DNA of 48,042 nucleotides from a virus, in IMG/VR virus record IMGVR_UViG_3300037294_000371, positions 1-48,042 of that record; one strand, written 5' to 3'. The notes beneath the pieces are model-generated. The model was not told the DNA's origin, did not search any database, and worked only from the letters and a program-made list of their open reading frames with translations. A program made the position numbers and the translations under genes. Numbering within the stretch: position 1 is the first letter of the stretch; every line of letters starts with the position of its first letter. Shown piece by piece: positions 2,846-27,211 of this stretch.

Positions 2846-3607
2846 TTAAATAAAAATTTGTGACCAGTCAATTGTTAGTTTACCAGAATCATCTGATTCA
2901 ATTAATGTGATCTTTTTATTTTTTAAATGCTCACTACGTGAACCACAGATTAAAGAGTCTGAGGGTGTAAAATTAACAACTGTTTTGTTTTCATCTCGAT
3001 ATAAATATCCAATCGCATCTACTTGAGAACATAAGATTGACGCGGATTTACCTATTAAATCAAGACCTCTTTCAGTCATTTCTTTTCCCTCTTTTTCTAC
3101 AAATTTATCTTTTAAATGTCCTAAAATAATTAGTGTTTCAAAACAATTTTCTAATTCTTCTAAAACCATCCATAAAGCTTTTCTAGTGTATTGATAACCT
3201 GCTCCATTTGGGAGTTGAGTAACATCATCACCAATCCAATTACGACCTTGAGCTGTTTGAGTGTACAACTTATTTGCGACTACTAAAACCATATCTTCAA
3301 GTGCTGTAACAGTATCGATTGCACCGTATTTGTAGACATAACTACCTTTTTCTTTGTTTGCTTCTTGTATTTTATTAATTACTTCCTTTAGAATAGAAAT
3401 AGGTGCTTTATCGCTTTCTTTAGCTAATTTTAGAACGTCAATTTTCATTGCTTCTACAAAATTTGCACCTCCTTCTAAGTCTATCAATAAGCAATTTTCT
3501 AAAGAACTTAAAGCTTGCGTTTTTCCAACTTTAGGTTTACTAAATAAAATCAATTTTTTTGGATTAATTCTATCTATCTTTCCTTTTTTACTTGGTAATT
3601 CAATCAT
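2846..3607 (-). CDS. Sak4-like RecA-fold ATPase
   Basis: In this 253-residue protein, a Walker A motif (S-K-P-K-V-G-K-T, residues 23-30) begins soon after the start, followed by L-I-D-L-E-G-G. Later Y-G-A-I-D-T-V-T forms a Walker B-like strand. The length and single RecA core fit the phage Sak4/AAA_24 group, which assists annealing or recombination with SSB. It lies directly beside the SSB-like gene, a common pairing in phage recombination and replication cassettes. Confidence 0.75.
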   Translation of the reverse strand: MIELPSKKGKIDRINPKKLILFSKPKVGKTQALSSLENCLLIDLEGGANFVEAMKIDVLKLAKESDKAPISILKEVINKIQEANKEKGSYVYKYGAIDTVTALEDMVLVVANKLYTQTAQGRNWIGDDVTQLPNGAGYQYTRKALWMVLEELENCFETLIILGHLKDKFVEKEGKEMTERGLDLIGKSASILCSQVDAIGYLYRDENKTVVNFTPSDSLICGSRSEHLKNKKITLIESDDSGKLTIDWSQIFI

Positions 3608-3678: not shown

Positions 3679-4152
3679 TTAAATATTTTTCATTTGTAAA
3701 TCTAATTTAGGAAATAAATCTGCAATATTATAATTTGCAAAACAACCAGACCTTCCATACCGACATAGTGATCTCAAATTTGATTTTCTTATGTTTCCAC
3801 AATAGCCAATGCTAAGATATATTCCACTTTCGTTCTTTTCTTTTTCTACATTTAATAAATGTGTAATTGATTCTTGTATTGTAATTTCTGGAAAATAGTT
3901 TTTTGATAGCTTAAAGAAATCATCAAAACTACGGTACTTATAATCGTTTTGTGTTTCACAATGTACCTGATTTCCTCTGTAAAAGGTACTTTTCTGTTCT
4001 CTTGGTAATATTCCTCTTAATCCAAGTCCAAAGAGATTTCTAAAAATATCATCTAATGAATCAATAGTAACATCTTCTTTAAATTTTATTTTTCTTACTT
4101 TTGAAAAATATATTTCAACATCTTCAACTGTTTTTACATTTCGTTTTATCAT
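3679..4152 (-). CDS. paralogue family member A (HC/YRSF/YCG motifs), unknown function
   Basis: I do not recognise an enzyme in these 157 residues. The protein shares an ordered set of motifs with the products at 5915-6424, 7048-7455 and 11871-12320: a helical start, [L/H]-x-C (H64-C65 here), then Y-R-S-F-D-D at 73-78, a helix ending Y-F-P-E, and Y-C-G-N at 117-120. Its ATG overlaps the stop of the upstream gene (TAATG), implying translational coupling. The C-terminus has extra cysteines. Confidence 0.7.
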   Translation of the reverse strand: MIKRNVKTVEDVEIYFSKVRKIKFKEDVTIDSLDDIFRNLFGLGLRGILPREQKSTFYRGNQVHCETQNDYKYRSFDDFFKLSKNYFPEITIQESITHLLNVEKEKNESGIYLSIGYCGNIRKSNLRSLCRYGRSGCFANYNIADLFPKLDLQMKNI

Positions 4153-17149: not shown

Positions 17150-17190
17150 ACATTTATTATATATCAAATATATAAAATTATAATAAATGT
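17150..17190 (-). repeat. long AT-rich inverted repeat
   Basis: ACATTTATTATA (17150-17161) and TATAATAAATGT (17179-17190) form a perfect 12-bp stem around a 17-nt loop containing ATAT motifs. It separates the small RNA element at 17025-17118 from the large structured region. In plus sense it is followed by TTTTGATTGTTTG; in minus sense there is no U-run, so terminator function is uncertain. Confidence 0.5.
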
Positions 17191-17208
17191 TTTGATTGTT
17201 TGTTTAGC

Positions 17209-17720
17209 ACCCACAGCATTATCAGGAATCTGAGTTATCAGTTACAGCCCTTGATAATCTGTTTGGGTCACGTAGTAGGACATCTATTTACTACTACTTG
17301 CTGAGAACTCATTTGTGTTGAGACTTGCTCATTACCGAACCATCTTTCATCACTTTCTCAAGGCGACAACACATCTAACATTACTGCTAGTATCTTTATG
17401 TAAGTAGTTTTATTCCTATTTAAACTACCAAATCTTCTTCATCGACTTAGTCGAGTTTCAAACTCAATTTACTTACAAAGGCTTTAATGTTTAACCTGTT
17501 TTTACTGTTTGTTATCATTCTACAACAGCACACTACAGTTTTATATCGAGTGTGTACAACTATTTTACGGTTGATTTTATGTAGAACTAGCTTCTATTTA
17601 TTTTAGGCATTTCCGCTTTACCTTCTTTTAAAGTGTTTTGTCTCACTATTCCAAAAACTCTTTGCCCAAATTTCAGTGAGGTAAGTTCTTTCGTTGACAC
17701 ATTGCAATGTGGAAAGATTT
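17209..17720 (-). ncRNA. large multi-domain structured RNA, candidate novel or GOLLD/ROOL-like
   Basis: This is a ~500-nt gene-free stretch, visibly richer in G and C than its flanks, with many nested helices. They include TTATCA/TGATAA (17235-17257) and GTAGTAG/CTACTAC (17272-17297). A branched domain is closed by GTAAG/CTTAC (17400-17476) and contains TAGTTT/AAACTA and TCGAC/GTCGA or GAGTT/AACTC. A three-way junction is closed by TCTACA/TGTAGA (17519-17585) with CACACT/AGTGTG and CAAC/GTTG inside. Further helices are CTCACT/AGTGAG (17642-17680) and TCTTTC/GAAAGA over CACAT/ATGTG (17687-17717). Minus sense is inferred from neighbouring genes. GOLLD and ROOL RNAs of phages are known to lie near tRNAs and have similar size; homology is untested. 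Confidence 0.6.
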
Positions 17721-17853
17721 TAGACTTACATTTACAACAAACACAACTGCTGATACAGTCTATAATATTTGTAAAAACTACATTAACTATCTAATATGTT
17801 ATAGAATAGAAAATATTATTGTTTGTCTTCAATCAAAGAGTTTAATTATATTG

Positions 17854-20104: not shown

Positions 20105-20254
20105 AATACGATATTTTATGAATTGTGGTCGAGTCACGACATCAACAATTCTGGTTATGACAAATACTCTGACGAGTACCTCCCAAAATTTGAAAAGAGT
20201 GGGGTGAGTTTTAGGTTATAAAGCGCTTTCAGTCAATATAAAATTTCAAAAATA
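20105..20254 (-). promoter_or_regulatory. candidate leftward promoter and structured leader
   Basis: In minus sense TATTTTTG (20247-20254) fits the -7 box. The sequence 18 nt upstream (TGGTAA) is a weak -33. The ~130-nt leader holds hairpins TACTC/GAGTA (20165-20178) and GTCG/CGAC (20128-20140) before the first leftward gene. The promoter would be back-to-back with the rightward promoter at 20285. Confidence 0.4.
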
Positions 20255-20330: not shown

Positions 20331-20694
20331 ATGGATAATTGGTATATTAATAATAAAGAACGACAAAACAAAAAGTCTGTAGAATACATGAAGTTAAAAA
20401 GACAAACTGATCCTTTATACAAAATGAAATGTAACTTAAGAAGAAGAATTAGAAATCTAAAGTTAACAGATAAACCTTCAACTTTAGATATATTATAAAA
20501 CAATATTTGATCATATTGCAAGTAAGTTTTCAAACACAATGAGTTGGGATAACTATGGACAATGGCATATAGATCATATAACACCGTTGTCAAGTGGGAA
20601 AACTGATATTGATAAAATAAAACTAAGTCATTATACTAATTTACAACCTTTGTGGGCTAAAGATAATTTAAGTAAAGGTTGTAGTATTACATAA
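20331..20694 (+). pseudogene. HNH homing-type endonuclease, frameshifted
   Basis: The first half (M-D-N-W-Y-I-N-N-K-E-R then basic helices) stops at 20498. A +1 shift near 20488-20495 restores a second half with M-S-W-D-N-Y-G-Q-W-H-I-D-H-I-T-P-L, T-N-L-Q-P-L-W-A-K-D-N-L, the hallmark HNH core with both histidines. Intact relatives, from memory, carry an L-G-C-type segment at the break, so a small deletion is the simplest explanation; programmed frameshifting is less likely. Free-standing HNH genes are mobile and often decay. Confidence 0.75.
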
Positions 20695-20739: not shown

Positions 20740-20771
20740 TTAGGAATTCTTAATTAAATGTTGTATCTTTG
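20740..20771 (+). promoter_or_regulatory. strong promoter, TTAGGA-N18-TATCTTTG
   Basis: TTAGGA (20740-20745) and perfect TATCTTTG (20764-20771) with 18 nt between. No ORF follows for 400 nt; the transcript is the non-coding RNA ending at 21090. Confidence 0.8.
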
Positions 20772-20777
20772 TAGTAT

Positions 20778-21090
20778 TAAAATATAATAGCAACTAGTTT
20801 AGGATACAGTTGTCTTAATTAATAGTGGACACGGCACTAACGTTTAGTTTTAAGAGGATGGGTTTTGCGAGGTATGACAACTTCTGTAACACTGGCTAGC
20901 CAAGAGGTCATGATTTATCTAAAATCGTGGAAACCTCGCTGTATCTAATAGTTAAATAACTTATTAAATCTATATTAGTTTATAGGTAAGAGGTAAGTCA
21001 TATAGTGTCCTGTTATTCATTTGCATTAGTGGTGCACTTTAAAATAATCTTGAATTTAGACTTATACATACTTGTATAGGTCTTTTTTTT
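20778..21090 (+). ncRNA. stand-alone structured non-coding RNA (~315 nt)
   Basis: It is bounded by its own promoter (20740-20771) and an 11-bp terminator with U8 (21058-21090); no start codon leads to a plausible ORF. Helices: GATACAG/CTGTATC (20803-20809 with 20939-20945) closes a domain containing GCGAGGT/ACCTCGC (20867-20873 with 20933-20939). Within that is CATGATTT-ATCTA-AAATCGTG (20909-20929, 8 bp with one wobble). AGTG/CACT and CTATA/TATAG hairpins are also possible. TGGCTAGCCA is a palindrome. It matches no RNA class I can recognise; it is not a tmRNA or RNase P by visible motifs. Confidence 0.75.
21058..21090 (+). terminator. Rho-independent terminator
   Basis: AGACTTATACA-TACT-TGTATAGGTCT forms 11 bp (one G-U) and is followed by eight T. 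It separates the non-coding RNA gene from the operon promoter at 21119. Confidence 0.92.
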
Positions 21091-21118: not shown

Positions 21119-21150
21119 TTAGGATATGTCAAATATATGTTGTACCTTTG
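21119..21150 (+). promoter_or_regulatory. promoter, TTAGGA-N18-TACCTTTG
   Basis: TTAGGA (21119-21124) and TACCTTTG (21143-21150) separated by 18 nt. It drives the long rightward operon starting at 21183. Confidence 0.82.
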
Positions 21151-21182: not shown

Positions 21183-21368
21183 ATGAAACAACCTAAATTT
21201 AACATAGGAGATAGAGTATATCATAATACTCCTGATTCAGAAGAAGGTCTTATAATGGATATATTGTATTCGTTAAGATATAGAGAATATGTTTACACTA
21301 TAGTTGTTGGGTTTGAACATAATTATGAATGTTTAGAAGATGAACTAACAGACGAAAAAGTATTTTAA
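21183..21368 (+). CDS. small SH3/KOW-like hypothetical protein
   Basis: The start of this 61-residue protein, F-N-I-G-D-R-V-Y-H-N-T, followed by alternating strands (Y-V-Y-T-I-V-V-G-F) and an acidic tail, is typical of small beta-barrel proteins that bind nucleic acid or regulate translation. First gene of the rightward operon, 30 nt after the promoter. Confidence 0.6.
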   Translation: MKQPKFNIGDRVYHNTPDSEEGLIMDILYSLRYREYVYTIVVGFEHNYECLEDELTDEKVF

Positions 21369-25135: not shown

Positions 25136-25701
25136 TGAATGGTTTTATATTAAAAGATGGAGTTCTCAGCGTTGAAGATCAATGCTGGGGACTTTCTCCA
25201 TTTAAAAAAATACTGAAAAGAGATAAAACTCGTAACAAAGATATGTCTTTAAAAGAGATGTTATTTGTGTATTATTATGCAGATATTAAATCAGATTATT
25301 TAATTATACCTGATTTAAAAGAAAGAACTAAAGAAATAATAAATGATGTTGAGTTACCTAATGATTGGAAAATAGATAATGTTATGGAAGAAGCTATTAT
25401 TTTTTATGAAAATAGAAGTTTAACTGTCATTGGTAAACTATACAGAGATGCATTAACTTCTGTACATGAGATGAGTGAATATCTAAAAAAGACAGGAGAA
25501 CTGTTAAATGAACGTACTGCTAATGGTGGAACTGTTACAACACTGTCTATGATTGCAGGAACTCAAGAAAAATTACCAAAGATTATGCAGAATTTAAAGA
25601 TTGCAGAAAAAGAAGTGCTAAAAGAAAAAAGCGAACTAGAAGGAAAGATGAAGGGTAAACAAACCTTTGGAATGTTTGAAGAAGGATTAAATATTGATTA
25701 A
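25135..25701 (+). CDS. putative small terminase subunit or packaging accessory
   Basis: The start of this 188-residue protein, M-N-G-F-I-L-K-D-G-V-L-S-V, and F-K-K-I-L-K-R-D-K-T are followed by a helical body and a C-terminal coiled coil (E-K-E-V-L-K-E-K-S-E-L-E-G-K). A protein of this shape precedes the terminase in related Bacteroidota phages, from memory. The small-terminase assignment is positional. Confidence 0.5.
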   Translation: MNGFILKDGVLSVEDQCWGLSPFKKILKRDKTRNKDMSLKEMLFVYYYADIKSDYLIIPDLKERTKEIINDVELPNDWKIDNVMEEAIIFYENRSLTVIGKLYRDALTSVHEMSEYLKKTGELLNERTANGGTVTTLSMIAGTQEKLPKIMQNLKIAEKEVLKEKSELEGKMKGKQTFGMFEEGLNID

Positions 25702-25702
25702 T

Positions 25703-27211
25703 ATGGAAGAAATATATTTTAATAAAGAAGGTAGAGATAAACTAATAGAAGGTGTTAATAAACTCAATCGAGCAGTGTCTTCTACTATGGGTCCAAATGG
25801 CAAAAATGTCATTATACCTGATAGAAAAACAGGAGAATATAGAGTCACTAAAGATGGGGTATCTGTAGCTAGAGAAATTTTTTTTAAAGATTCATTAGAA
25901 AACATTGGTGCACAATTAGCTAAACAAGCAGCTGAAAAAACTGTAGAAGATGCAGGTGATGGAACAACTACAGCTACTGTACTAACTACTGCTTTTGTTA
26001 ATAACCTTTGTTCTTTTGAATTTAAGGATATCAATACAGCTTTTAATGAAATAATACCCAAAGTTATAGAACAATTAAAACTGAACTCAAGAAAACTAGA
26101 ACACAAAGATATTACACACGTAGCAAGTATTTCAGCTAATAATGATTTACAAATTGGAGAATTTATACAGAATGCTTTTAATCATTCAGATATTGTAAAG
26201 ATAGAAGAGAGTTCTAATACAGAAGATGTATTAGATACACTACCTGGAATATTACTTCCTGTGAGTTACTTTTCTAAACATTTTATTAACAACCCCTCTA
26301 AAGGAAGTTGTGAACTTACAAATGTCAATACATTAATTATAGATGGAAAGTTAGAGAAATTAGAAAACTTTAGATCAATACTAGAATTGACGCAACAACC
26401 TAATAATTCACTATTAATTATTGTAGAAGATATACACGAACAAGCATTGAGAAAACTTGAAACTTTTGTTTTATCTCAACAATTACCAATATGTGTTATT
26501 AAATCACCAGGTTTTTCTAGACATCGTAAAGATTTACTAGAAGACCTTTCAATCTTTACAGGTAGTACATTAATTACAGATTTAACCAAAAGTTATAACA
26601 CAAACATTCTTGGTAAACTACAATCTTGTAAGATATCTAAAAACAGTAGTATCTTAGTTAAAAAAGAAGATATTGATGTATCTGAAAAATTAAATGTTTT
26701 AAAAATATTATTTAAAGATAAAGACCTTACTAGTTATGATAAAGATTTAATTAAACAAAGAATTGAATATTTAAAAGGTAAAGTATCAATTATTAAAGTT
26801 GGTGGTAAAACAGAAACTGAAATGAAAGAAAGATATGACCGTTACGATGATGCAGTTAAAGCAGTAGCTTGTGCACTAGAGGAAGGTATTGTAGAAGGTG
26901 GTGGTATTGCTTTATTTAAAGTTCAATCTAAATGGTTAAACAATGAAAACAAAACAAATACGTCAAATTCAAATGAAGACATAAATAAATGTGTTTACAG
27001 ATGTTTACTTGAACCTGCTATTAAAATCTTAGAAAACAAAGTCAATACTACATATTCACTTACTTTTGATTTAGGAATAAGTATGTTTAAAGAAAATATT
27101 ATAGACCCACTTAAAGTTACAAGATGTGCATTATTGAATGCAGTAGCTGTAGCTAAAACAATCTTAAGCACAGAAGCAATTGTGTTAAACCAAAACGAAT
27201 GGATGAAATAG
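25703..27211 (+). CDS. divergent GroEL-like chaperonin
   Basis: ATG 25703 gives 502 residues (a TTG at 25694 would add three). The ATP-binding signature is complete: G-P-N-G-K-N-V (30-36), T-K-D-G-V-S (49-54), D-G-T-T-T-A-T (86-92), Y-D-R-Y-D-D-A-V near 387 and E-G-G-G-I-A-L. The apical region is strongly divergent and the usual glycine/methionine C-terminal tail is missing. With the GroES-like gene it probably folds phage structural proteins. Its end overlaps the terminase start. Confidence 0.88.
   Translation: MEEIYFNKEGRDKLIEGVNKLNRAVSSTMGPNGKNVIIPDRKTGEYRVTKDGVSVAREIFFKDSLENIGAQLAKQAAEKTVEDAGDGTTTATVLTTAFVNNLCSFEFKDINTAFNEIIPKVIEQLKLNSRKLEHKDITHVASISANNDLQIGEFIQNAFNHSDIVKIEESSNTEDVLDTLPGILLPVSYFSKHFINNPSKGSCELTNVNTLIIDGKLEKLENFRSILELTQQPNNSLLIIVEDIHEQALRKLETFVLSQQLPICVIKSPGFSRHRKDLLEDLSIFTGSTLITDLTKSYNTNILGKLQSCKISKNSSILVKKEDIDVSEKLNVLKILFKDKDLTSYDKDLIKQRIEYLKGKVSIIKVGGKTETEMKERYDRYDDAVKAVACALEEGIVEGGGIALFKVQSKWLNNENKTNTSNSNEDINKCVYRCLLEPAIKILENKVNTTYSLTFDLGISMFKENIIDPLKVTRCALLNAVAVAKTILSTEAIVLNQNEWMK

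Follow-up and report, generated by a model that had tools for sequence, protein, structure and literature searches.

An intergenic gene for a structured, pseudoknotted RNA lies at the junction of the two divergent arms of a crAss-like phage genome, bounded by its own promoter and terminator, in a slot whose RNA is exchanged for an unrelated one in near-identical phages. The sequence analysed (the window, 48,042 nt in all; IMG/VR record IMGVR_UViG_3300037294_000371) encodes a primase, a DnaB-like helicase and a DNA polymerase on the leftward arm, and a PhoH-like ATPase, GroEL, TerL, the portal and the major capsid protein (MCP) on the rightward arm. Among named phages, Cellulophaga phi14:2 (Crassvirales, Steigviridae) has the most similar MCP (61.5%). 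In animal guts, the Crassvirales belong to the most abundant phages. The locus occupies positions 20740-21090 of the + strand and consists of a promoter, a ~310-nt RNA and a terminator, with approximately 290 nt between the promoter and the terminator that contain no conserved open reading frame (ORF). A sequence-only reading had proposed a stand-alone non-coding RNA gene of no known family, and homologues, covariation and lax Rfam searches agree with that proposal. The reading that we favour, and consider probable, is that of a stand-alone gene in an exchangeable slot, whose pseudoknotted RNA binds a protein and in this way acts in trans, at middle or late times.

Genomic setting and transcription signals

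20331-20694 (+): decayed HNH endonuclease ORF, intact in the sibling contig L126 (3510-3884)
20740-20745 (+): −33 element of the RNA promoter, TTAGGA
20764-20771 (+): −7 element of the RNA promoter, TATCTTTG, following TTAGGA after an N18 spacer
20788-20952 (+): conserved RNA core of type A, ~165 nt
20953-21057 (+): 3′ part of the predicted transcript, poorly conserved (alignment A1)
21058-21090 (+): intrinsic terminator, with an 11-pair stem (21058-21083) and T8 (21083-21090)
21119-21150 (+): separate promoter of the rightward operon, TTAGGA (21119-21124), N18 and TACCTTTG (21143-21150); the first ORF is at 21183

The promoter TTAGGA-N18-TATCTTTG is as the sequence-only reading described it. 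By its sequence it fits the housekeeping (sigma-ABfr) promoter type of the Bacteroidota, with the pattern TAnnTTTG at −7 and TTTG at −33 (PMC7366714), and the transcription start is predicted at ~20777-20779. Homologues have TTAGGA or TTTGGA at −33, and of 22 homologous copies, 20 carry TAnnTTTG at 20-26 nt upstream of the core, the exceptions being L185, which has TATATTTA, and L055, in which a tRNA gene (2190-2265, read by eye) lies between the upstream promoter and the RNA. Proximity to the promoter is thus not required, and in L055 tRNA processing may release the RNA.

The predicted 11-bp terminator with U8 is present as well. Terminator-like sites number 6 in 6 kb, compared with 1.1 in shuffles, and a stem followed by a T-run stands behind the RNA in about 20 of the 22 copies (16 by a strict script, with the longer-loop stems of L144, L055, L068 and L193 added by eye), its place being conserved and its sequence not. 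No such terminator was detected behind the RNA in L139 and L188. The RNA had also been placed at the start of the rightward arm, directly before the operon promoter. The second promoter is indeed there, and most homologues have a second −7 box about 306-353 nt past the core start; the decayed HNH ORF, itself rightward, comes earlier, so that the RNA is not strictly the first rightward unit.

A second conserved non-coding element is found at the same junction (window 20174-20250; 2380-2470 in L045, which is phi14:2), and also in L051, L070, L099, L104, L112, L113, L119 and L122. It is composed of a short inverted repeat, GGGnTAnnCCC, followed by AAAnTTnnAAAAGAGTGGGGGTGATG and A/T tracts, is conserved out to phi14:2 regardless of the RNA type, and might serve as an origin, as a leftward leader or as a region of early promoters. 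Farther along the window, positions 17180-17780 comprise ~600 nt without long ORFs and with a GC content above that of the surroundings, stretches of which are alike in phi14:2 and several relatives; 17157-17626 is absent from the sibling L126. The + strand of this region folds with a z-score of −2.7 (20 shuffles), and it could be a further structured RNA or a leader. In the structural operon, the phage GroEL chaperonin gene (25694-27211) lies immediately 5′ of TerL, as it does in phi14:2.

The RNA family and its fold

Sequence patterns and the covariance models R1 and R2 located the ~165-nt core in over 20 further IMG/VR contigs, and an exact 21-mer of the core retrieved 7 IMG/VR contigs. Model R1 scores 197 bits in the window and down to 40 bits in homologues, which occupy the same position in their genomes. 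The first covariance model, composed of PB, PD, PC and PF without PX and PA, detected the A2 subtype weakly; with R2 (PX, PA, PB and PF) the score of L143 rose from 55 to 117 bits, L143 itself being in the training set. Wherever the neighbours could be read, the RNA lies at this divergent junction in genomes of Crassvirales type and adjoins counterparts of the window's rightward genes, even at 30-45% protein identity (tblastn with window proteins). In the distant relative L188 (MCP 27% identical), the direct neighbours are unmatched by window proteins and the likeness is limited to the divergent setting. Each type A record searched has exactly one copy of the RNA.

The lengths of the core vary modulo 3, stop codons occur in nearly all frames of most copies, and no ORF is common to the core copies; the core is therefore non-coding, and the conserved peptide that the earlier reading had set against its own proposal is not encoded there. 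Searches of INPHARED with the RNA (blastn) gave chance matches only, a core pattern search of 297 Bacteroidota genomes gave 0 matches, and the corresponding junction of phi14:2, with a gap of 358 nt, contains no type A RNA. The 19 core-pattern matches in GTDB genome contigs were all rejected as chance, judged by their flanking sequence. A small metallopeptidase-like ORF with an HExxH-type motif (EVTHLVNY or ECLHCTNY) lies just upstream of the RNA in L138, L068, L129 and L188.

The core adopts a fold proven by covariation, in which a long helix encloses a variable domain and is knotted by GCGAGGU/ACCUCGC. Its elements in the window are as follows.

20794-20799 and 20894-20899 (+): helix PX, CTAGTT / GGCTAG; 96.3% of cells paired
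20805-20812 (+): 5′ strand of helix PA/PA2, UACAG-UUG, with the partners CAA (20878-20880) and CUGUA (20884-20888)
20814-20854 (+): PB domain, of varying size among copies, closed by CUUAA (20814-20818) and UUAAG (20850-20854)
20867-20873 and 20933-20939 (+): pseudoknot helix PC, GCGAGGU / ACCUCGC; 98.4% paired
20878-20888 (+): 3′ strand of helix PA2/PA, with a CUU bulge between CAA and CUGUA
20909-20929 (+): hairpin PF, of variable length; double changes in 7 of 8 pairs, 77.5% paired

For PX, PA, PA2, PB, PC and PF together, 91.8% of the cells of the 18-copy alignment A8 are paired, compared with 73.4% after column shuffling (0/500); the double-change cells number 120 against 48 in shuffles (0/500), and the covariation score is 0.533 against 0.221. 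Sliding the partners by 1-3 columns lowers the pairing in A8 to 39-51%. This alignment was fitted to a model with PB, PC and PF and without PX or PA, so the evidence for PX and PA is not circular, and the double changes in PC are also seen in raw MAFFT alignments. PX carries double changes (AU to UA, GC to AU) in 7 of the 18 copies and occurs as CUAGUU/GGCUAG, CUUAUU/GGUAAG and CUUAUA/UAUAAG. The 5′ strand of PA/PA2 reads UACAG, UAUUG, UGUAG, UAUGG, UACUG or GGUUG, each with a matching partner (read directly for UACAG/CUGUA, UAUUG/CAAUA, UGUAG/CUACA and UAUGG/CCAUA). The closing pairs of PB are 94% paired with double changes in 5 of 5, and PC occurs as GCGAGGU/ACCUCGC, GAGAGGU/ACCUCUC, GAAGGU/ACCUUC and AAGGGU/ACCCUU. 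PC crosses PX/PA, which makes the core a pseudoknot. The short junctions GGGUUUU, AYGA, CUU, CCAAG and GGAAA are invariant, and no conserved unpaired stretch of 8 nt or more was seen in the core (alignments A3 and A8, by eye). Single-sequence folding is moderately better than that of shuffles (z-score of −2.56).

The three helices singled out from the sequence alone fared unequally: GCGAGGT/ACCTCGC covaries and CATGATTT/AAATCGTG forms a genuine hairpin that varies among copies, whereas GATACAG/CTGTATC lacks covariation support. The latter was rejected as an outer helix, with bases that overlap PA and covariation not above shuffles; it may form transiently.

An exchangeable RNA slot

From 21046 onward, over 7 kb, the sibling L126/L046 and the window share 98.8% identity (99.3% for TerL), and between the shared promoter and terminator the sibling has 858 nt, as against ~260 nt in the window. 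A near-identical phage thus keeps the promoter and the terminator and swaps in an unrelated RNA: the insert comprises ~260 nt unrelated to the window RNA (type B) and a 180-residue ORF with MUG113/T5orf172 (GIY-YIG-type) domains.

L126 3966-4821: type B cassette with the MUG113/T5orf172 ORF, in the same promoter-terminator slot

Type B with this ORF (at ~+310) is also present in L128, L102/L101, L129 and L058; L070 has a divergent type B without it, and the ORF accompanies type B in 5 of the 6 contigs first surveyed. L196 is a further type B contig. The single-sequence fold of type B has a z-score of −1.6, and a candidate pseudoknot, GAUUUAAC/GUUAAAUC crossing AGUG/CACU, was picked out by eye. 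Type A, which has several subtypes, is accompanied by no fixed ORF. In whole-record searches the two types are mutually exclusive, type B genomes having no type A elsewhere. A TerL tree (25 rows, a quick tree with SH-aLRT support only) shows at least 6 switches of RNA type and at least 10 of subtype.

In many copies homing-type nucleases lie beside the RNA, on one side or on both, and may drive the exchange; they comprise HNH upstream in the window (decayed) and in L144 (HNH Pfam scores slightly below the curated cut-off), Endonuclease VII downstream in L135 and L132, and GIY-YIG elsewhere. By inspection only, a candidate type C was noted in L080 (2250-2580) and a short candidate type D in L074 (~3880-4000), L077 (~3225-3340) and L086 (~4015-4130), all at the junction with the same kind of promoter upstream. 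The slot probably carries further RNA types besides A and B.

The signals around the slot bear on whether the RNA is instead a cis-acting leader, the main alternative, the nascent RNA altering RNA polymerase (compare HK022 put) or downstream translation and the rightward arm being expressed past the terminator, which we consider unlikely. The RNA is on the same strand as the rightward operon and always directly before it, and L139 and L188, where an ORF comes next with no intervening terminator, leave room for such a leader. In most copies, however, a strong terminator and a complete second promoter separate the RNA from the operon, so that operon transcripts need not include the RNA, and an essential cis element would hardly be expected to give way to a wholly different RNA in siblings, unless type B is equivalent. 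HK022 put RNA is ~70 nt long, acts in cis on RNA polymerase, and is not followed by a terminator of its own and a second promoter. Like put, the RNA described here is structured and opens a phage transcription unit; unlike put, it is larger and has its own terminator and a second promoter downstream.

It is improbable that types A and B are selfish RNAs or homing-ribozyme remnants, with ribozyme-like cores mobilised by HNH, Endonuclease VII or GIY-YIG genes in the manner of group I introns. Nuclease ORFs do cluster around the slot, among them the MUG113/T5orf172 ORF behind type B in five of those six contigs, the RNA is exchanged on the TerL tree, and the helix order PX/PA-PB-PC-PA/PX-PF-PC is that of a group I core (P3-P4-6-P7-P3-P8-P7). 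This shared order is topology alone and is not diagnostic. Neither the group I intron model nor the P7 consensus was matched (E ≤ 10 for the window, E ≤ 5 for L143); moreover, the RNA is intergenic and interrupts no gene, its promoter and terminator are kept, there is one copy per genome at one place, and type A lacks a fixed ORF. A conserved DNA element (an origin or packaging site), with a symmetry that only resembles RNA structure, would suit the divergent junction and the neighbouring element at 20174-20250, but is very improbable: the compensatory changes obey RNA pairing, including G-U pairs and the pseudoknot, a promoter and a terminator flank the core, and sibling genomes lack the core altogether.

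Relation to known RNAs and proposed function

Rfam searches at gathering and lax thresholds with the window, subtype A2, type B and type C gave nothing credible, the lax searches covering 4227 families at E ≤ 10 for the window and E ≤ 5 for subtype L143. No match to 6S RNA was found at either lax threshold, and the covariation supports a pseudoknot that carries two side domains rather than a long hairpin with a large central open bubble, which speaks against the 6S-like mimic once suggested. Theta ribozymes are HDV-like, pseudoknotted RNAs of gut phages (PMC10879173). The resemblance lies in a pseudoknotted RNA of Bacteroidota phages and in the L055 copy, which directly follows a tRNA gene; however, PB precedes the 5′ strand of PC, the core is much larger, and a tRNA neighbour is usually absent. 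An HDV-like or theta ribozyme was rejected, as the nested double pseudoknot P1-P2-P3-P1′-P4-P2′ was not found and lax Rfam searches gave no HDV-family match. GOLLD and ROOL are described (PMC12286853) as large, highly structured non-coding RNAs, often phage-encoded and of unclear function. The present RNA is likewise structured, non-coding and phage-borne, but its core is ~165 nt rather than several hundred, its fold is different, it has no Rfam match, and it lies at the start of a structural operon.

Further candidates were set aside. For a tmRNA or tRNA-like RNA, ARAGORN and Rfam detect, within the window, only a tRNA-Leu and a tRNA-Glu, both at other places. The phage crAss001 carries a TROVE gene; as for a Y RNA with a Ro/TROVE partner, PF05731 is absent from 21 records, a control genome being matched. 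The 7-mers common to the RNA and 16S rRNA were judged chance. No RNA of this kind was found in the open-licence literature searched.

In the stand-alone gene that we favour, host RNA polymerase would make a ~310-nt transcript that runs from ~20778 to ~21088. The 5′ half of this transcript would form the pseudoknot, with PX-PA around the variable PB and with PC tying the loop interior to the strand past PF, and the 3′ half would consist of the variable tail and the terminator. The RNA itself would be the product, a trans-acting molecule of middle or late times that works by attaching to a host or phage protein. Protein binding in trans seems most likely because a three-dimensional scaffold and short invariant junctions are conserved without a long conserved unpaired stretch; the lack of a conserved unpaired stretch of 8 nt argues against a fixed antisense target. 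In phi14:2 and crAss001, a virion RNA polymerase reads the early genes and the host enzyme probably the middle or late ones (PMC10136315, PMC8375218). A host-type promoter before the structural arm thus points, although not decisively, to middle or late rather than pre-early use, and leaves the suggested role as an early regulator doubtful.

A decoy or host-takeover role may be envisaged by analogy, and an anti-defence role is compatible with the exchange of the RNA between sibling phages. More tentatively, the clade may keep a dedicated RNA slot with a fixed promoter and terminator, in which unrelated structured RNAs (A and B, perhaps also C and D) replace one another through recombination aided by homing nucleases, each disabling or redirecting a host protein; if so, the slot would be to RNA what the anti-defence islands of phages are to proteins. 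An RNA family proven by covariation, at a fixed regulatory junction and swapped wholesale between near-identical phages, provides a concrete locus, with a covariance model and a helix map that make the fold directly testable, at which to ask whether phages use RNAs as interchangeable tools against their hosts.
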